Source: Unio delphinus
Lineage: Eukaryota > Mollusca > Bivalvia > Unionida > Unionidae
Assembly (NCBI GenBank): GCA_029339505.1
Contig: JAQISU010000345.1
Coordinates: 2,731,501-2,795,500, forward strand
Reading direction: 5' to 3'
Length of the DNA: 64,000 nucleotides
Below the pieces are notes generated by a model. It saw only the letters and a program-made list of their open reading frames with translations. It did not search any database and had not been told where the DNA came from. The translations under genes were made by a program, and so were the position numbers. Positions 1 through 60,440 of this stretch are shown here, piece by piece (position 1 is the first letter of the stretch; the number at the start of each line of letters is the position of its first letter).

Positions 1-1
1 G

Positions 2-63
2 AACTCATTTCTGCATGATTTGTTACAAGGAGTCACTGATCCAATCATGAGCCATTTGCAATG
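2..63 (+). CDS. Possible C-terminal tail of an upstream gene
   Basis: The frame is open from the window edge and ends at a TGA at 61-63, about 50 bp before the start of the polymerase frame. It gives only 20 residues with no recognisable motif. In such compact elements an upstream gene would be expected close by, so this may be its end. It could equally be chance. Confidence 0.2.
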
Positions 64-111
64 ATTCATTATACTTAAATCTTTCATTTAAATGCTTGTT
101 TTAATTATAGT

Positions 112-924
112 ATGGAGGAGTTCGAGAGATTATCAAAAATTAAGCCCTGGAAAAGTGTTCAATTCAATCTTGATAGAGTTTCTGATACACCCAAGAATAA
201 AATTCCTGATAGAACCATGATTAGTAAAATCAGAGACTGTTTTAATGAATTCAAGCGTGATGGGGCATCTCACTGCTGGTCAACATTTCGAATTGATGGT
301 GTTGTTGACGCTACCATGAATGATGAAAAAGCAGCAGTGATAATTTCACGTCTTGGAGAAGAAAGAAATTTTTTTCGAATAAAATTCCTTATCCGTGATG
401 ATGGAAAATGGATCATTAGGGATAAATTTGAACCCATTCTCAAGGACAAAAAAACTGTCACCGTGAATCAGGATTCAAAACCAGGAATTTTGACTGGAAT
501 TGACAAACCATACTACGAAAGATCTTATCCTATAACAGCAGTTATTTACGGGATATATCCGCTCAATGAAAAACCTGATATTGCAAAACTAGCACCTATG
601 AAATATTCGTCAAGGGTCAATTGTGTAGCAACACGAATAATGGAACACTTCACAAATGCGTCCCGGGGAAATAAACTAACTGATCAAAGACGAAAAAAAA
701 TAACCGAGTGGGAATTAACGGTAAAAGAGAATGGGGCAACAATTCAAGATATAATTAAATTAGAAACATCATTGAGATTTCTAATATCGGTAAGGACAAT
801 CACCGGTGAAGTATTAAAAGAACCGAAATATCAATCAAAAAAGGAGCTCCAATACAGATTATTGATCATAACGAACACGCGTGGTCATCTGCAAGAACAA
901 TATTCCCACGGGATAGAACCGTGA
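112..924 (+). CDS. N-terminal portion of the element's DNA polymerase/helicase protein
   Basis: A 270-residue frame begins with an ATG. Residues from about 165 on (SSRVNCVATRIMEHF, then the WELTVKENGAT block) resemble the N-terminal half of long predicted polymerase-like proteins I recall from arbuscular mycorrhizal fungi (Rhizophagus). No Exo I-III motifs of a proofreading domain are obvious. The frame overlaps the next one by four bases. The downstream frame can be read back to about 831, and the family-like sequence seems to cross from one frame to the other at an A6 run (837-842), so the two frames are probably one gene split by a one-base slip. The slip could be real decay, programmed frameshifting or a sequencing error. 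The function of this region alone is unknown; DNA binding or a remnant of the exonuclease domain are guesses. Confidence 0.75.
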   Translation: MEEFERLSKIKPWKSVQFNLDRVSDTPKNKIPDRTMISKIRDCFNEFKRDGASHCWSTFRIDGVVDATMNDEKAAVIISRLGEERNFFRIKFLIRDDGKWIIRDKFEPILKDKKTVTVNQDSKPGILTGIDKPYYERSYPITAVIYGIYPLNEKPDIAKLAPMKYSSRVNCVATRIMEHFTNASRGNKLTDQRRKKITEWELTVKENGATIQDIIKLETSLRFLISVRTITGEVLKEPKYQSKKELQYRLLIITNTRGHLQEQYSHGIEP

Positions 925-3590
925 AATATATTCCCCAAACTCTGTTTGGAACAGAAGAGTTTTTTTCAGAGCAGAAATTATTTGATGATATTTACCATTT
1001 GAGTAAAAACGATCCTGTGTCAATATGGCTATTTCATAGTGCTGCAGACGAGGAATGTAGATTTGATCAGTTTGTAAGACCCAACGGAGAATTGTACCGT
1101 ACTGAAGAACTGCATAATCAAATGAAAAAACTAGCTAGTGAGTTTTCACCCCAGAGTTCTGGGGAGGGGGAAGACAACGATCAATTATTAGCAAACTGTT
1201 TTACACTATCATCAATTGCAGCACATTTTGCTAGGAAGAAAAACGCGTGGAAACCAACGAGAAGTGAGTTTTTATCAGATGTCGGATTGTCCTGTCTTGA
1301 ATACAGTCATGGAGGGTTATGGAATACAAAATACGACCCTGAAACCATTATTTCAGTTGATATGATTGCGTGTTATCCAGGAAGTTTTCTCGGGTATGGA
1401 GAATGCGAGAAATATTTTAAACGATTTGGACACCCCACACACGAAATGACCCGTGTTGCGATTAATGGACCACTGCCTGATTTTGATTTAACCGGATTCG
1501 CTTGTGTAGTATCATTTGAATTGGCTGAGGGACTTCATTCGTGTAGTTATCTTTGGATTGGTAAACACATGTCTGAAAAACACTGGATGCCAATAGTGTT
1601 GTTACGGTATATGATTGATTGTGGGATGTTAAAATCATTAATTGTCAGTGAAGCAATTATATCCTATCGAGCACAGAAATCAGTCTGGTTACCACAACCT
1701 GATCTAGAAAAAATAATTAGCGAACAGCGAAAACTGTTTCCTGATTTCAGTGAACAACAAATCATGGATTGGTCCAAACAGTTATTTGAAATCAGAAACA
1801 ATGAAGCAAAAGATCTTGGACGAAGAATAATCGGTAAATTTACCCAAGGTGGTAAATACGACAATACAAGATATTCTTCACGGTTAATTATAGACAATGC
1901 TGAATACGATTTTGTAATCGCGGATCTAACGAATAAAGGCCTATATGTCAATCGTAAAGACGCATTTCTGTCCGATGGAACCAAATTGGGTACAATTGTT
2001 ACTTACAATGATGGGTACAATCCTCAATACACACATTTGAGAGCTTCTATGCTTGGTTATGCTTCTATCAATTTTTTTTCAATGATCAATAAATTTCCTA
2101 ACACCGCAGTTAGAGTTGCCACTGATTCATTTTACATAAAAAGCGATATGGCTGATTTTATAAACGGTAGCAAGGCTACTGGCAACGAGAATTGGGGGTC
2201 ATGGAGAATTAAGCGAGAAATGCTTCATGATTATATTCAATCAGCAGATGTTACATGTGAAAATAATTATTTAGAAAGCAATCAGTGTTCAGAATTTTCT
2301 AATGCACCACCGATTTCTGATCCAATATGCCGGTATAAAACAGTTTATTTAAACGGCTGTGGTGGGTCAGGAAAAACAACCCGGGCAATTGAGTTATTCC
2401 GCGTTTCCAATCCAAATATGATTGTACTAACACCAACACACAGACTTGCAAGAAAAATGATACAGCAAGGGGTAAATGCTTGCACTTATCACAGTTTTTT
2501 CCGATGGAAGGGAGATAAATGGACTCCTGAGCGTATGGGAGAGAAATTTATTCCTGAAATTATCATTTGGGATGAAATAGACACAGTGTCAGAAGATGTA
2601 TTAAAAATATTTATTGAGTGGTTGTTATTGAAAAATACAAAAATCGTCATGTGCGGTGATCACGGACAACCACCACCATTTGTCGGTGCATCCCCACATG
2701 AATGGCTAAAGGGTTTTGTAGACTATTATGAAGAAATTGATACCGATCATAGATCACTTGATAATGAATTAAAAGAATTGAAGAAACTAATTAGATTACA
2801 ACCGGATAGAATCCAGTGTGAAATAGCCCGTGAAATAATTTCGGAAACTCCAATGAATGAGTTTTGGGAAGTATGGAGACCAAATGATTTGATCATTGCA
2901 AGTAGAAAAATAGTCAGGGACACACTTCAGATGAAGTTATTTGAATTGCATAAACAAAAATTTGCAACACTTCCAGTGCCTCTTTGTTATAGGCCATCTG
3001 ATACACGAAAACAGAACATTGAAGTTGATATTCCAGGACAAAGTGAAAAACAAATTCTCGTATTAAATGATATTGTGCTGGTTCATATCAATGTCGTTGA
3101 AGATGCATTGCGTGCTAATAAATCCCCGTGGACGCTAGGATACGCAGCAACAATACATTCTTCACAGGGGCTGACAATATCGGATACAATTGTTTGGATG
3201 GTGGATAATCGCATCGAATGGTCAAATTTAGTCTATCTCGCAGTATCCAGAGTACGAAAAATAAATCAACTTCGAAAAATTGTTTTCGATGATAATGACA
3301 CAACAATGGATGATATTGATGTTAAAATTATTGATAAAAAACTCTCCGGTTACAAACAACAAGACAAAAAAAAACAACGAGAATTTGATATTGATGCTAA
3401 ATTAATAATCACTTTGAAGAAACAACAGAATAATCACTGCGCAAGTTGCAATTGTATAATGCGTTGGCAGTATTCGGATAAAGAACCTCGCCAATTTACC
3501 GTTGACAGAAAAAATAACAATTTCGGTCATGTCAGAAACAATGTGATGTTGACTTGTCTTGAGTGCAAAAGACGCAACGGCGCTAGTTAA
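921..3590 (+). CDS. B-family DNA polymerase palm - SF1 helicase - HNH nuclease fusion protein
   Basis: 889 residues; the nominal first codon is GTG, so this is probably the continuation of the preceding frame. Domains in order: a PolB-like palm with motif A at about 145-152 (SVDMIACYP, catalytic Asp147), a motif B-like stretch at about 300-311 (RRIIGKFTQG) and motif C at 399-403 (VATDS, Asp402); an SF1 helicase with Walker A at 479-487 (GCGGSGKTT), Walker B WDE at 550-552, motif III GDHGQPPP at 579-586, motif V TIHSSQGLT at 744-752 and motif VI AVSRVR near 774; and a C-terminal HNH-type zinc domain with Cys840/843, Asp862, His870, Asn873/874 and Cys879/882. The expected role is replication of the element, with polymerisation and unwinding on one chain; the HNH domain could nick ends or replication intermediates. 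No exonuclease motifs are visible. It ends tail-to-tail with the integrase, overlapping by 8 bp. Domain calls are from motifs; the combined role is inference. Confidence 0.9.
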   Translation: MKYIPQTLFGTEEFFSEQKLFDDIYHLSKNDPVSIWLFHSAADEECRFDQFVRPNGELYRTEELHNQMKKLASEFSPQSSGEGEDNDQLLANCFTLSSIAAHFARKKNAWKPTRSEFLSDVGLSCLEYSHGGLWNTKYDPETIISVDMIACYPGSFLGYGECEKYFKRFGHPTHEMTRVAINGPLPDFDLTGFACVVSFELAEGLHSCSYLWIGKHMSEKHWMPIVLLRYMIDCGMLKSLIVSEAIISYRAQKSVWLPQPDLEKIISEQRKLFPDFSEQQIMDWSKQLFEIRNNEAKDLGRRIIGKFTQGGKYDNTRYSSRLIIDNAEYDFVIADLTNKGLYVNRKDAFLSDGTKLGTIVTYNDGYNPQYTHLRASMLGYASINFFSMINKFPNTAVRVATDSFYIKSDMADFINGSKATGNENWGSWRIKREMLHDYIQSADVTCENNYLESNQCSEFSNAPPISDPICRYKTVYLNGCGGSGKTTRAIELFRVSNPNMIVLTPTHRLARKMIQQGVNACTYHSFFRWKGDKWTPERMGEKFIPEIIIWDEIDTVSEDVLKIFIEWLLLKNTKIVMCGDHGQPPPFVGASPHEWLKGFVDYYEEIDTDHRSLDNELKELKKLIRLQPDRIQCEIAREIISETPMNEFWEVWRPNDLIIASRKIVRDTLQMKLFELHKQKFATLPVPLCYRPSDTRKQNIEVDIPGQSEKQILVLNDIVLVHINVVEDALRANKSPWTLGYAATIHSSQGLTISDTIVWMVDNRIEWSNLVYLAVSRVRKINQLRKIVFDDNDTTMDDIDVKIIDKKLSGYKQQDKKKQREFDIDAKLIITLKKQQNNHCASCNCIMRWQYSDKEPRQFTVDRKNNNFGHVRNNVMLTCLECKRRNGAS

Positions 3591-4527
3591 GACCATGCGG
3601 TGGCAATTGAGTATCCTCGGGTATTACTTGTAATTGTTGTCTAGTAAATCCTCGTTGAGGGGCAGTTGAATCCAGTTTATAGACTGGAGGTCTACCCGTA
3701 GATCGTGTTATACTAGATATCTTGTGTACAGTAACACTCCAAATAGGATCAGTAGCCCTTTTTCTACCCCTTTCAAGCTCTCCTGGTTCATATAAATATC
3801 TCACAATGACATTACTACCAAGAATTGTTTCTTTGACATCTTTTTGTGGTTGTACGGGTATTGACTTCTTTTTAATCGCATTGATAGGTTTCATGTTGAT
3901 TGTTCTAGTAATCTCATTATTCAGTGCAGTAATCACAGCTGGTAATCTTTTAACCCATTTACGGGATCTTTTTTCTTGGATAAATTCTTTTGCGTATTGA
4001 TATCCAAATAACCGCTCAGCAATCGTCCTATTAAACCGTTCAACAATTGCCTGATCACGATGTAGCGCAGTATGTCCTCGTCTGATAGTGACATTGTGAT
4101 ATTTCATTGTAAATAACACTGCACCCTGAAATTCCTTGCCAGGATCAATTTGTAATAGATTTGGCCAGTGTAGAGGACCCCTTCGATAAATCTTTTCAAA
4201 TGCAGAAGCCTTCAGTGGCTGATTTTGTTTTTAACGGTTCTGTTTCTTTGTATCGACTTGCAATATCAACTACGGTTAATGCGTATTTGTACCCACCATC
4301 ATGTGGCAGAAATAATATATCAGCCTGATGAACTTCATTAGGAAAGGTCACATCAAAATGCGAGAAATTAATTTGTTTAGGCGGTGGTAGATAAATCTGC
4401 CATAGTGCCTGTTTAGATAACCAATGAGCCGCAATGGGTTTTTTTTCACTTTTGCAGCGCTAGCGAGTTTATGGATTGCTGATTTACCCCTCCAGTATCC
4501 TCTTGGGGAATAATAAATAGATTCCAT
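3583..4527 (-). pseudogene. Retrovirus-type DDE integrase of Maverick/Polinton class, two frame breaks
   Basis: On the minus strand, from an ATG at 4527, the translation follows the Maverick-type integrase: an N-terminal block with GYWRG, an LPPP segment, the first catalytic region (HQADILFLPHD, then VVDIASRY), the second with the LQIDPGKEF motif, and the catalytic Glu in AIVERFNRTIAERLF. The C-terminal part is the 178-residue frame ending at 3583. The frame changes twice: at a T8 run on the plus strand (4439-4446) and near 4206-4214. The first is at a homopolymer, so a read or assembly error is possible; the second is not. The gene starts 8 bp after the stop of the zinc-ribbon/PLA2 gene, which suggests co-transcription. 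The enzyme family inserts linear element DNA into the host genome, usually making 5-6 bp target duplications. The domain identity is secure; whether the gene is functional is open. Confidence 0.88.
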
Positions 4528-4534
4528 GTTGTTA

Positions 4535-5061
4535 TTAATTACCAGCACCTAACATCAGTTTACTTTTCATAGTCGATTTTAACAAAAAGGAAGCCAATTT
4601 TTCTTTGAAAGATTTATCAGGAATAGCATTTAACGCATGAATTAATTTCACATCTGCTAGATGCCTGTGCTGCAGATTATTGCTTTTATAAGAGACATCA
4701 TGAAGGTGACAGGCCTTATCAATGGCGTTTATCGGTTCTTCACCGGGGTTGGGTTGGTTTTGATTATTGAGTCTGATATCTAATCGTGTTCCGGGGCCAC
4801 AGTAGCTATATCCTGGAAGGTGTTTTTCTCCAGGGTACTTTGCCCATGGGGTTCCAGGGAGTTTAGTTAGCTTGGCTGCGATATCACCTCCTCGTTTTTT
4901 TTTAAAGATTTTTTGGGTTTACCAAGGGAAACAAATCTAAATTTCTTTGTACTACACTGTACGCATTTACCAGAAAGCGCTGATCGGTTATTTTTAGTTG
5001 TAATCGTCGTCAAGTCATCTGTGCCAGTACGTTTTTTACACTTCACACAATATAGATCCAT
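4535..5061 (-). pseudogene. Zinc-ribbon plus parvovirus-like phospholipase A2 protein, one frameshift
   Basis: The 64-residue N-terminal frame from the ATG at 5061 is a zinc ribbon with CxxC pairs at residues 5/8 and 33/36. The adjacent frame, which has no ATG of its own, encodes a PLA2-like domain: a PWAKYPGEKHLPGY lead, a YCGPGT calcium-loop-like motif, and the catalytic CHLHDVSY (His-Asp), ending at TAA 4535-4537. The frames meet at a T9 run (plus strand 4895-4903), so this is most likely one gene with a one-base slip. Zinc-ribbon/PLA2 proteins of this layout occur in adintoviruses and Mavericks, where PLA2 is thought to help the particle cross membranes, as in parvovirus VP1. It is divergent from the ATPase, with only 17 bp between start codons. 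The PLA2 part is easily missed because it lacks a start codon. Confidence 0.85.
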
Positions 5062-5078
5062 AATTTATATATAACGGC
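5062..5078. promoter_or_regulatory. 17-bp divergent intergenic spacer with palindromic TATA box
   Basis: The spacer lies between the start codons of the zinc-ribbon gene (-) and the ATPase (+). It contains TTATATATAA, an exact palindrome, so it presents the same TATA sequence to both genes. TATA-rich motifs directly next to start codons are common in late genes of large eukaryotic DNA viruses. Promoter activity is inferred. Confidence 0.5.
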
Positions 5079-5744
5079 ATGAATATAATTGATTATTCAG
5101 CTACCCGACGACGGGAATCTATTAAACATCATGAAATGTTGCCGAATTCAATTAGAATGTTTATAATCGGACCATCTGGAAGCGGAAAGACACAACTGCT
5201 ACTTAATTTGATAACGAGATGGATGAAATGGAACAAATTGTATTTAATATCCCCTAGTGTAGACGATCAGCGATGCTATGAAGTGCTAAAGGATTTTAAC
5301 GAGAAAGCAAAAGAATTTGAAATCGACGATGATTTTATTGAATTTATTACTGATATTGATGAAGCCCCTTCCATGGAAGACATCGATGGAAGTATTAACA
5401 ATTTAGTTGTCTATGACGATGTGATGTTAGATAATCAAAAAAATCCTGCTAGAATCTTTTCCCGGGGGCGGCACAAAAACACCGACGTGATATATGTCAC
5501 TCAACGGTACACACAAATACCAAAAGTGATCAGAGATAATTGCAATGTGTTGTGTGTGTTTAACGGCGTTGATACTCATACGCTACGAAATATTCATCAG
5601 ACCTGGTGCAGCGGTGATATGGATCATAATCGATTTAGAAATTTCTTTAGCCACGCTCAGTCAAAACCACACGGATTTGTAACAATAAATTTAGCAGACC
5701 CGAGGACGCGATATCGTATCGGACTTGATAAAATATTCGGTTGA
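5079..5744 (+). CDS. A32-type (FtsK/HerA superfamily) genome-packaging ATPase
   Basis: The intact 221-residue frame has a Walker A motif at residues 31-38 (GPSGSGKT), a hydrophobic strand ending in Asp-Asp at 109-114 (LVVYDD, Walker B), and the conserved downstream block FSRGRHKNTDVIYVTQRY followed by QIPKVIRDN, typical of poxvirus A32-like ATPases. Length and motif spacing fit this family in Mavericks, virophages and adintoviruses. The enzyme pumps element DNA into preformed capsids, so its presence implies that the element is or was able to form particles, although no capsid gene is visible here. It starts at an ATG 17 bp from the divergent zinc-ribbon gene. There is no frameshift, unlike its neighbours, and the reading frame looks capable of producing a full protein. 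Confidence 0.92.
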   Translation: MNIIDYSATRRRESIKHHEMLPNSIRMFIIGPSGSGKTQLLLNLITRWMKWNKLYLISPSVDDQRCYEVLKDFNEKAKEFEIDDDFIEFITDIDEAPSMEDIDGSINNLVVYDDVMLDNQKNPARIFSRGRHKNTDVIYVTQRYTQIPKVIRDNCNVLCVFNGVDTHTLRNIHQTWCSGDMDHNRFRNFFSHAQSKPHGFVTINLADPRTRYRIGLDKIFG

Positions 5745-5769
5745 AATCCTAAAAGAAAATTATTAACCC

Positions 5770-6016
5770 ATAGCAGCAGAGGGGGCGAGTGACAACTTTT
5801 GCGACGTTTTATGGTTAAGCAACGAAAACGCGAATAGAGTATGACCGCGCAAATTCGTGTTTTGAGCAAGAAATCAATAAGGCTCTATTTACCAAATGGA
5901 GACCTTATTTTTTGGGGGGTTAAAACACGAGATTTCGCAGAAAGGCTCTATTTGCTGTTTTGACAGTTAAAAACGATTTTTGTTTGAAAAGTTGTCCGGC
6001 TCGCCCCCTCTGCTGC
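5770..6016. repeat. 247-bp foldback (long inverted repeat), possible MITE or element terminus
   Basis: The outer ends are a perfect 18-bp inverted repeat: AGCAGCAGAGGGGGCGAG on the left and its complement on the right. Inside, the two ~120-bp arms remain alignable (GACAACTTTT blocks, CGTGTTTT blocks, GGCTCTATTTACC at the centre), so the whole segment can fold on itself. Flanking 6-mers do not match, so no clear target duplication is seen. It may be a foldback MITE inserted beside the ATPase, or the terminal structure of the Maverick-like element (AG...CT ends). No coding capacity is apparent. Confidence 0.7.
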
Positions 6017-6044
6017 TTAAATGCACATTGTAAAGGATTTGCAA

Positions 6045-25427: not shown

Positions 25428-52073
<26,646 letters not shown>

Positions 52074-53185
52074 ACATGACTTACATTATGGTGAACTGAG
52101 TTCTAAATAGTACAACATTTGCTATCAATTCCAAATGACTTACATTATGGTGAACTCAATCCTAAATAGTACAACATTTGCTATCAATTCCAAATGACTT
52201 ACATTATGGTGAACTCAGTCCTAAATAGTACAAAATTTGCTATCAATTCCAAATGACTTACATTATGGTGAACTCAATCCTAAATAGTACAAAATTTGCT
52301 ATCAATTCCATGACTTACATTATGGTGAACTCAATCCTAAATAGTACAAAATTTGCTATCAATTCAAAATGACTTACATTATGGTGAACTCAATCCTAAA
52401 TAGTACAAAATTTGCTATCAATTCCATGACTTACATTATGGTGAACTCAAACCTAAATAGTACAAAATTTGCTATCAATTCCATGACTTACATTATGGTG
52501 AACACAATCCTAAATAGTACAAAATTTGCTATCAATTCCAAATGACTTACATTATGGTGAACTCAATCCTAAATAGTACAAATTTGCTATCAATTCCAAA
52601 TGACTTACATTATGGTGAACTCAATCCTAAATAGTACAAAATTTGCTATCAATTCCAAATGACTTACATTATGGTGAAGTCAATCCTAAATAGTACAAAA
52701 TTTGCTATCAATTCCAAATGACTTACATTATGGTGAAGTCAATCCTAAATAGTACAAAATTTGCTATCAATTCCAAATGACTTACATTATGGTGAACTCA
52801 ATCCTAAATAGTACAAAATTTGCTATCAATTCCAAATGACTTGCATTATGGTGAACTCAATCCTAAATAGTACAAAATTTGCTATCAATTCCAAATGACT
52901 TACATTATGGTGAAGTCAATCCTAAATAGTACAAAATTTGCTATCAATTCCAAATGACTTACATTATGGTGAACTCAATCCTAAATAGTACAAAATTTGC
53001 TATCAATTCCAAATGACTTACATTATGGTGAACTCAATCCTAAATAGTACAAAATTTGCTATCAATTCCAGATGACTTACATTATGGTGAACTCAATCCT
53101 AAATAGTACAAAATTTGCTATCAATTCCAAATGACTTACATTATGGTGAACTCAATCCTAAATAGTACAAAATTTGCTATCAATT
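52074..53185. repeat. 59-bp minisatellite, about 19 copies
   Basis: Units with ATGACTTACATTATGGTGAA, CTCAATCCTAAATAGTACAA and AATTTGCTATCAATTCCA. Some units lack two to three bases after CCA. Confidence 0.98.
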
Positions 53186-58825: not shown

Positions 58826-58829
58826 ATTT

Positions 58830-60440
58830 AATGGATTGTATAGTGGGTGTAATGGATAGTAATTTGTGGTGTAATGTATAGTATTTTGTGGTGTAATGGA
58901 TAGTATTTTGTGGTGTAATGGATGTAATAGATAGTATTTTGTGGTGTAATGGATAGTATTTTGTGGTGTAATGGATAATATTTTGTGGTGTAATAGATAG
59001 TATTTTATGGTATAATGGATAGTATTTTGTGGTGCAATGGATAGTATTTTGTGGTGTAATGGGTAGTGTTTTGTGGTGTAATGGATAATATTTTGTGGTG
59101 TAATGGATGTAATCGATAGTATTTTGTGGTGTAATGGATAATATTTTGTGGTGTAATAGATAGTATTTTATGGTATAATGGATAGTATTTTGTGGCATAA
59201 TGAATAGTATTTTGTGTTGTAATGGATAGTATTTTGTGGTAAAATGGTGAGTATTTTGTGGTGTAATGGATAATATTTTGTGGTGTAATAAATGGTATTT
59301 TGTGGTGTAATGGATGGTATTTTGTGGTGTAATGGATAGTATTTTGTGGTGTAATGGATGTGATGGATAGTATTTTGTGGTGTAATGGATAGTATTTTGT
59401 GGTGTAATGGATAGTATTTTGTGGTGTAATGGATAGTATTTTGTGGTGTAATGTATAGTATTTTGTGGTGTAATGGATAATATTTTGTGGTGTAATGGAT
59501 AGTATTTTGTGGTGTAATGGATGGTATTTTGTGGTAAAATGGAGAGTATTTTGTGGTGTAATGGATAATATTTTGTGGTGTAATGAATGGTATTTTGTGG
59601 TGTAATGGATGGTATTTTGTGGTGTAATGGATGGTATTTTGTGGTGTAATGGATAGTATTTTGTGGTGTAATGGATGTAATGGATAGTATTTTGTGGTGT
59701 AATGGATAGTATTTTCTGGTGTAATGGATAGTATTTTGTGGTGTAATGGATAATATTTTGTGGTGTAATGGATGTTATTTTGTGGTGTAATGGATAGTAT
59801 TTTGTGGTGTAATAGATGTAATGGATAGTATTTTGCGGTGTAATAGATAGTATTTTGTGGTGTAATGTATAGTATTTTGTGGTGTAATGGATAATATTTT
59901 GTGGTGTAATGGATAGTATTTTGTGGTGTAATGGATAGTATTTTGTGGTGTAGTGGATAGTATTTTGTGGTGTAATGGATAATATTTTGTGGTGTAATGG
60001 ATAGTATTTTATGGTGTATTGGATAGTATTTTGTGGTGTAATGGGTAGTATTTTGTTGTGTAATGGATAGTATTTTGTGGTGTAATGAATAATATTTTGT
60101 GATATAATGGATAGTATTTTGTGGTGTAATGGATAATATTTTGTGGTGTAATGGATATTATTTTGTGATGTAATGGATGGTATTTTGTGGTGTAATGAAT
60201 AGTATTTTGTGGTGTAATGAATAGTATTTTGTGGTGTAATGGATGGTATTTTGTGGTGTAATAGATGGTAATTCGATGGTTTAATGGATGGCATTTTGTG
60301 GTGTAATGGATGGTATTTTGTGGTGTAATAGATGGTATTTCGTGGTGTAATGGATGGTATTTCGTGGTGTAATGGATGGTATTTTGTGGTGTAATGGATA
60401 GTATTTTCTGATGTTTTGTGATGTAAGGGATAGATATTTT
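58830..60440. repeat. 22-bp minisatellite, about 70 copies
   Basis: Units of TAATGGATAGTATTTTGTGG plus TG, with variants ATGGATGTAATGGATAG. Because the minus strand contains no stop in any phase of the unit, frames over 400 codons arise by chance. Confidence 0.98.

Follow-up and report, generated by a model that had tools for sequence, protein, structure and literature searches.

A predicted polymerase-helicase replicase in a multicopy polinton-like element of the bivalve Unio delphinus

The window analysed here is a 64,000-nucleotide stretch of the Unio delphinus genome (contig JAQISU010000345.1, positions 2,731,501 to 2,795,500 of the forward strand), which begins within a polinton-like element carrying a putative replicase gene. 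An 889-aa frame at 921-3590 on the plus strand encodes, in a single chain, a family-B-polymerase-like palm, a Pif1/RecD-type superfamily 1 (SF1) helicase and, at its C-terminus, an HNH-like zinc domain. A first-pass annotation of the sequence had proposed this combination, and it was borne out by motifs, Pfam and PHROGs matches and a predicted structure. The frame is, however, the C-terminal part of a replicase of about 1,170 residues and not the entire protein. The gene comprises the following features:

112-924, plus strand: replicase N-terminal piece, an open reading frame (ORF) of 270 aa with an alpha/beta domain in the terminal-protein position and the first part of an OTU-like region (structure model; weak OTU matches)
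810-924, plus strand: frame-break zone, where the two replicase frames overlap, the second of them carrying the OTU-like His motif at about 867-884
921-3590, plus strand: replicase C-terminal piece, with the palm, the SF1 helicase and the HNH-like zinc domain
1353-2135, plus strand: palm motifs, with motif A at 1353-1379, the Lys motif at 1827-1853, pre-motif C at 2037-2078 and motif C (ATDS) at 2109-2135
2355-3254, plus strand: Pif1/RecD-type SF1 helicase, with Walker A at 2355-2381, Walker B at 2562-2582, HSSQGL at 3150-3176 and YLAVSRV at 3234-3254
3438-3575, plus strand: HNH-like zinc domain (CxxC ... VDR ... GH ... N ... CxxC)

The replicase gene and its copies

A search of 5.8 billion proteins returned 103 relatives; many are fragments, and the longer ones mostly measure 1,130-1,280 aa. 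The closest, P0001 (1,168 aa), is 73% identical across the entire query, and in both P0001 and P0002 the domains form one chain instead of separate genes. Within the genome itself, stop-to-stop frames of 1,168-1,294 aa read complete in five pieces (L016, L017, L020, L022 and L024). In the window copy, by contrast, the gene is split inside the OTU-like region, with the Cys in frame one (112-924) and the His in frame two (921-3590); the first piece stays in frame with the other copies as far as residue 241-243. Because the replicase is spread over two frames, the GTG at 921 is probably not the true start. With its replicase frame split and its integrase gene interrupted, the window copy is a broken relic.

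The 2.5-Gb genome contains at least 51 scored replicase gene copies, a lower bound that includes the window copy, and the other 50 show 91-95% identity. The matched stretch is free of stops in 29 of the 51 and holds at least one stop in 22. For nine copies compared over stop-free stretches (36 non-independent pairs, copies with stops excluded), omega was 0.20 over the whole replicase, 0.23 in the palm, 0.13 in the helicase and 0.15 in the HNH-like domain. The replicase is thus under purifying selection.

Ends and gene content of the element

The window copy is delimited by terminal inverted repeats (TIRs) and spans 14,967 bp (C361:2722551-2737517). Its remaining features within the window are:

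1-6017: 3' part of the element, whose 5' end, at C361:2722551, precedes the window
3583-4548, minus strand: integrase gene, interrupted here; open for 178 aa at 3583-4119, and matched full length by tblastn at 71%
4538-4918, minus strand: phospholipase A2 (PLA2)-like protein (PF08398, E 2.3e-12)
4867-5061, minus strand: DUF5679 small protein (PF18930, E 7.3e-14)
5079-5744, plus strand: A32-type DNA packaging ATPase (PF04665, Pox_A32, E 1.5e-15)
5752-6017: 3' TIR, ending ...CTGCTGCT and pairing with L009:1051-1316 at 96% identity
6018-6022: 5-bp target site duplication (TSD) TAAAT, identical to the 5 bp ahead of the element's 5' end

Both ends could be read in eight copies; a ninth (C220), a head-to-head palindrome whose 5' end was not reached, was excluded from the end counts. 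All eight have TIRs of 204-294 bp that are 92.6-99.3% identical, and all eight are flanked by a perfect 5-bp direct repeat (TAAAT, AAATA, CTAAG, TATAT, ACTTA, AATAG, TTACA or AAATT). The termini read AGCAGCAG...CTGCTGCT with variants, one end each of the window copy and of C120 deviating. The C220 region (L017/L018, C220:1015470-1035469) holds two copies head to head in a near-perfect palindrome of 4,335 bp at 99.3%. In L023 (C120:1021939-1031938), pieces of an older second element, whose replicase pieces are 52-76% identical and in several frames, adjoin a younger copy, and pieces of further elements were also seen in L026 and L039.

Gene content was surveyed by tblastn; ten copy C64 proteins served as queries, along with the DUF5679 protein and the window's 270-aa frame. 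Homologues of the integrase, the PLA2-like protein, the A32 ATPase, the capsid protein and the DUF5679 protein were found in all eight copies, as was a protease homologue once extra upstream stretches were counted. The element's double-jelly-roll (DJR) major capsid gene (E 1.7e-17) and its PLA2-like gene (E 2.6e-12) were recognised by Pfam, while the adenain-like protease gave a weak match (Peptidase_C5, E 0.003-0.006, under the curated cut-off). Pfam gave no rve match to the integrase piece at 3583-4119 of the window; the 324-aa integrase of copy C64 matched rve with E 2.5e-7 (31.3 bits, just short of the curated cut-off of 32.6). Together with the TIRs and TSDs, these genes agree with the Maverick-like nature that the first-pass annotation had ascribed to the element. 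One gene near the capsid gene (L009:5540-6425, minus strand, and its homologues) is 28-72% identical to its copy C64 counterpart, depending on the piece, compared with 85-99% for the A32 ATPase and 71-97% for the integrase. It may encode a hypervariable protein, perhaps one that contacts the host.

Elsewhere in the window, tandem arrays occupy 28297-30008 (57 bp x 30, 97%), 52076-53185 (59 bp x 19) and 58829-60414 (22/44 bp). The long ORFs at 28269-30020 and 59005-60294 lie almost entirely inside such arrays and are therefore likely satellite artefacts. A reverse transcriptase frame at 44639-45898 (RVT_1, E 1.4e-23) belongs to a separate retroelement.

Replicase domains and the likely mode of replication

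The region preceding the palm gave weak OTU matches only, with its Cys and His conserved: the Cys (codon within NCVA, window 619-630) is kept in 47 of 47, and the His is also invariant. The palm that follows resembles, in the predicted structure, that of the protein-primed polymerase of phi29. The motif A Asp, the Lys motif and the second motif C Asp never vary, and all 51 of 51 sequences lack the first motif C Asp. As to an exonuclease domain, residues 277-414 contain just one invariant acidic residue, but the structural alignment with phi29 begins at residue 52. Pfam models, PF03175 included, found no polymerase in the 889-aa ORF, and searches of PDB sequences with the single sequence and with a profile returned only Pif1/RecD/TraI-type helicases or ATPases annotated as such, and no polymerase.

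The missing Asp and the lack of a sequence-level PolB match would suit a protein that is a helicase with an inactive polymerase scaffold, the element being copied by host polymerases. The title of a 2016 paper by Krupovic (vew019) calls the polymerase inactivated, which also counts for this explanation. The invariance of the motif A Asp, the Lys motif and the second motif C Asp speaks against it, as does the low omega of the palm. Active polymerases without the same Asp are, moreover, listed in PMC11071308. Taken together, we regard a dead palm as unlikely.

The helicase was matched by Pfam at residues 471-624 (AAA_19, 2e-10; AAA_30, 2.6e-8) and by PHROGs as Dda-like (2.7e-18), and is also supported by a structure match. 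C-terminal to it, residues 812-882 matched endonuclease VII in PHROGs (6.2e-5). We scanned 107 homologues for this HNH-like domain, 60 of which extend at least 90 residues beyond helicase motif VI, and the pattern CxxC...D-x...G-H...N...CxxC was matched by 48 of these 60 long C-termini. Among the 12 misses, P0006, P0056, P0063, P0064 and P0102 carry the domain with changes, while the remaining seven have an end that is truncated, frame-shifted or of other sequence. The residue directly after the Asp, a position held by the catalytic His in the endonuclease VII/HNH fold, is Arg in 47 of the pattern-matched C-termini, Gln in one (Rhizophagus P0067) and His in none; a separate conservation count gave Arg at this position in 41 of 42. 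Residues other than the missing His might serve in catalysis. Of 24 molluscan and fungal rows with a name, a set rich in fragments, five combine motif C and Walker A with the HNH pattern: Elysia P0044 and P0053, Racocetra P0042, Cetraspora P0043 and Diversispora P0052.

Such a domain could also be a homing endonuclease in transit that does not belong to the replicase. This reading is suggested in PMC11071308, and homing endonucleases have been described in protein-primed family-B polymerases (pPolBs) and in helicases of polinton-like viruses (PLVs) (PMC11071308; PMC12220804). A homing gene would, however, be expected to occur sporadically, whereas the domain sits in the identical place in these five proteins, in unnamed homologues and in the distant P0127, with Arg or Gln instead of His in every pattern match. 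Its steady presence without the expected His argues against a chance homing endonuclease, and we find that origin improbable.

The first-pass annotation had instead envisaged a self-contained replicase with its own nicking activity: the HNH domain would nick the element, the palm would extend the 3' end and the helicase would displace the strand. Retention of the domain at the C-terminus under purifying selection is consistent with this, as are PHROG endonuclease VII matches in four homologues (E 1.8e-8 to 3.6e-13). Nick priming is nevertheless difficult to reconcile with the replacement of the expected catalytic His, the OTU-like Cys/His region ahead of the palm, the phi29-like palm and a linear element with TIRs. 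We therefore consider it very unlikely, and the proposal of a mode other than protein priming was not supported.

Protein-primed, helicase-assisted synthesis is the most likely mode by analogy and from the motifs. Since the protein is built like the Tlr1-like pPolB-S1H replicases, it probably copies the linear element DNA by protein-primed synthesis, while the predicted helicase on the same chain would unwind the duplex. The domain in the terminal-protein position would supply the priming hydroxyl, and the OTU-like Cys/His protease would then release the primer part from the replicase. The palm would polymerise by means of the motif A Asp and the second motif C Asp, with strand displacement driven by the fused Pif1/RecD-like helicase. 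The HNH-like zinc domain may be an integral module that binds DNA or a nuclease that has changed greatly, but not a replication-initiating nickase. Finally, the RVE integrase would insert the copy, giving rise to the 5-bp duplications.

Relatives and comparison with known systems

Named relatives of the replicase come from Elysia sea slugs, the freshwater mussel Sinanodonta, Glomeromycotina including Rhizophagus, and a few other sources; the kinship with Rhizophagus proteins that the first-pass annotation had named was thus recovered by homology search and by a tree. In this quick tree of 73 rows, the 11 fungal rows fall on one side of one branch (SH-aLRT 100), and the window sequence groups with P0001 and P0003 (100) and then within a seven-row set with Sinanodonta (100); midpoint rooting and the long row P0102 restrict further reading. 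Capsid homologues, over part of the query, reach 70% identity in Sinanodonta and 48% in Potamilus, which fits a bivalve host. Two scans of IMG/VR found no relatives. P0059 and P0072, two relatives assigned to metagenome bins of Candidatus Thiodiazotropha, are probably clam-host DNA inside symbiont bins. The fungal elements are not unknown, since early Rhizophagus polintons, with no detectable capsid gene, are already mentioned in PMC7805220. More speculatively, these proteins could represent an animal-and-fungus virus lineage with an all-in-one primer-protease-polymerase-helicase, in which a permanent, non-homing HNH-derived zinc domain recognises or processes genome ends and whose hosts have come to include both aquatic animals and mycorrhizal fungi through transfer from one to the other; we put this forward only tentatively.

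The same genome also carries canonical pPolB genes. A PF03175 scan gave 150 matches and at least 75 scored candidates, with open frames mostly of about 1,361 aa, and zero matches in 14 control genomes. Examples lie at C18:1834013-1835533 and in L038, the latter with motif C DTD and exonuclease-like motifs (read by eye). Next to the C18 gene are an RVE integrase with a chromodomain and an A32 ATPase, which are 28% and 26% identical, respectively, to their window-type counterparts and likely form one element with the pPolB. The two replication modules, one fused and one canonical at high copy, can therefore be compared side by side in one genome, and the natural set of more than 100 proteins (many of them fragments) can show which primer, protease, palm and HNH-like residues are fixed.

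With canonical animal Polintons, Mavericks and adintoviruses the element shares TIRs, the RVE integrase, the A32 ATPase and the DJR capsid, as well as a weakly matched candidate for the adenain-like protease, and its ends, (AGC)2//(GCT)2, resemble the (AGT)2//(ACT)2 ends of vertebrate Mavericks (PMC8097293). It differs from them in a polymerase fused to an SF1 helicase, in having no recognisable exonuclease, and in motif C (xTD versus DTD). Its TSD is 5 bp in all eight copies, against 6 bp in canonical elements, including the vertebrate Mavericks of PMC8097293; 5-6 bp is given for PLVs, with 6 bp typical for RVE integrases, in PMC12220804. OmPLV of Oxyrrhis marina, an endogenous polinton-like virus, likewise has an SF1 helicase and a pPolB on one chain, but in reverse order with the helicase N-terminal, with the exonuclease kept, and with a tyrosine recombinase in place of an RVE integrase; the excerpts of PMC12721341 mention no HNH domain in this fusion.

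The closest counterparts are the Tlr1-like helicases, for which PMC11071308 describes variable N-terminal domains, a vOTU with Cys and His, a palm and an SF1 helicase, followed at the C-terminus by GIY-YIG or HNH; their palm is predicted to be active without the first motif C Asp. Protein priming is predicted for the pPolB-S1H replicases of PLVs and transpovirons. The Unio protein has in common with those of PLVs, Tetrahymena Tlr1 and transpovirons the palm without the first motif C Asp, the SF1 helicase C-terminal to the palm, a C-terminal HNH-like domain and, putatively, the OTU-like Cys/His region, and the Tlr1 element likewise has an RVE integrase (PMC11071308). Our two replicase searches, the second of which scored only 7,996 candidates, retrieved no named Tlr1 or transpoviron protein, and the top BFVD match was H6WBE3. 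As read from sequence, the domain plan nonetheless matches these published replicases, and the architecture is not the barely described one that the first-pass annotation had supposed, the fusion being already known. None of the titles and abstract openings listed reports it in animals. Unlike the Tlr1-like systems, the present element resides at high copy in a 2.5-Gb animal genome. Its replicase is real, conserved and has been copied many times; the architecture is known, and the host range and type of element look new. The apparent novelty is that the fusion occurs in a polinton-like lineage of an animal that has relatives in mycorrhizal fungi, in a genome that also holds canonical pPolB genes. 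This extends an arrangement that the cited papers describe from protist viruses and transpovirons to animals and, as proteins, to mycorrhizal fungi.
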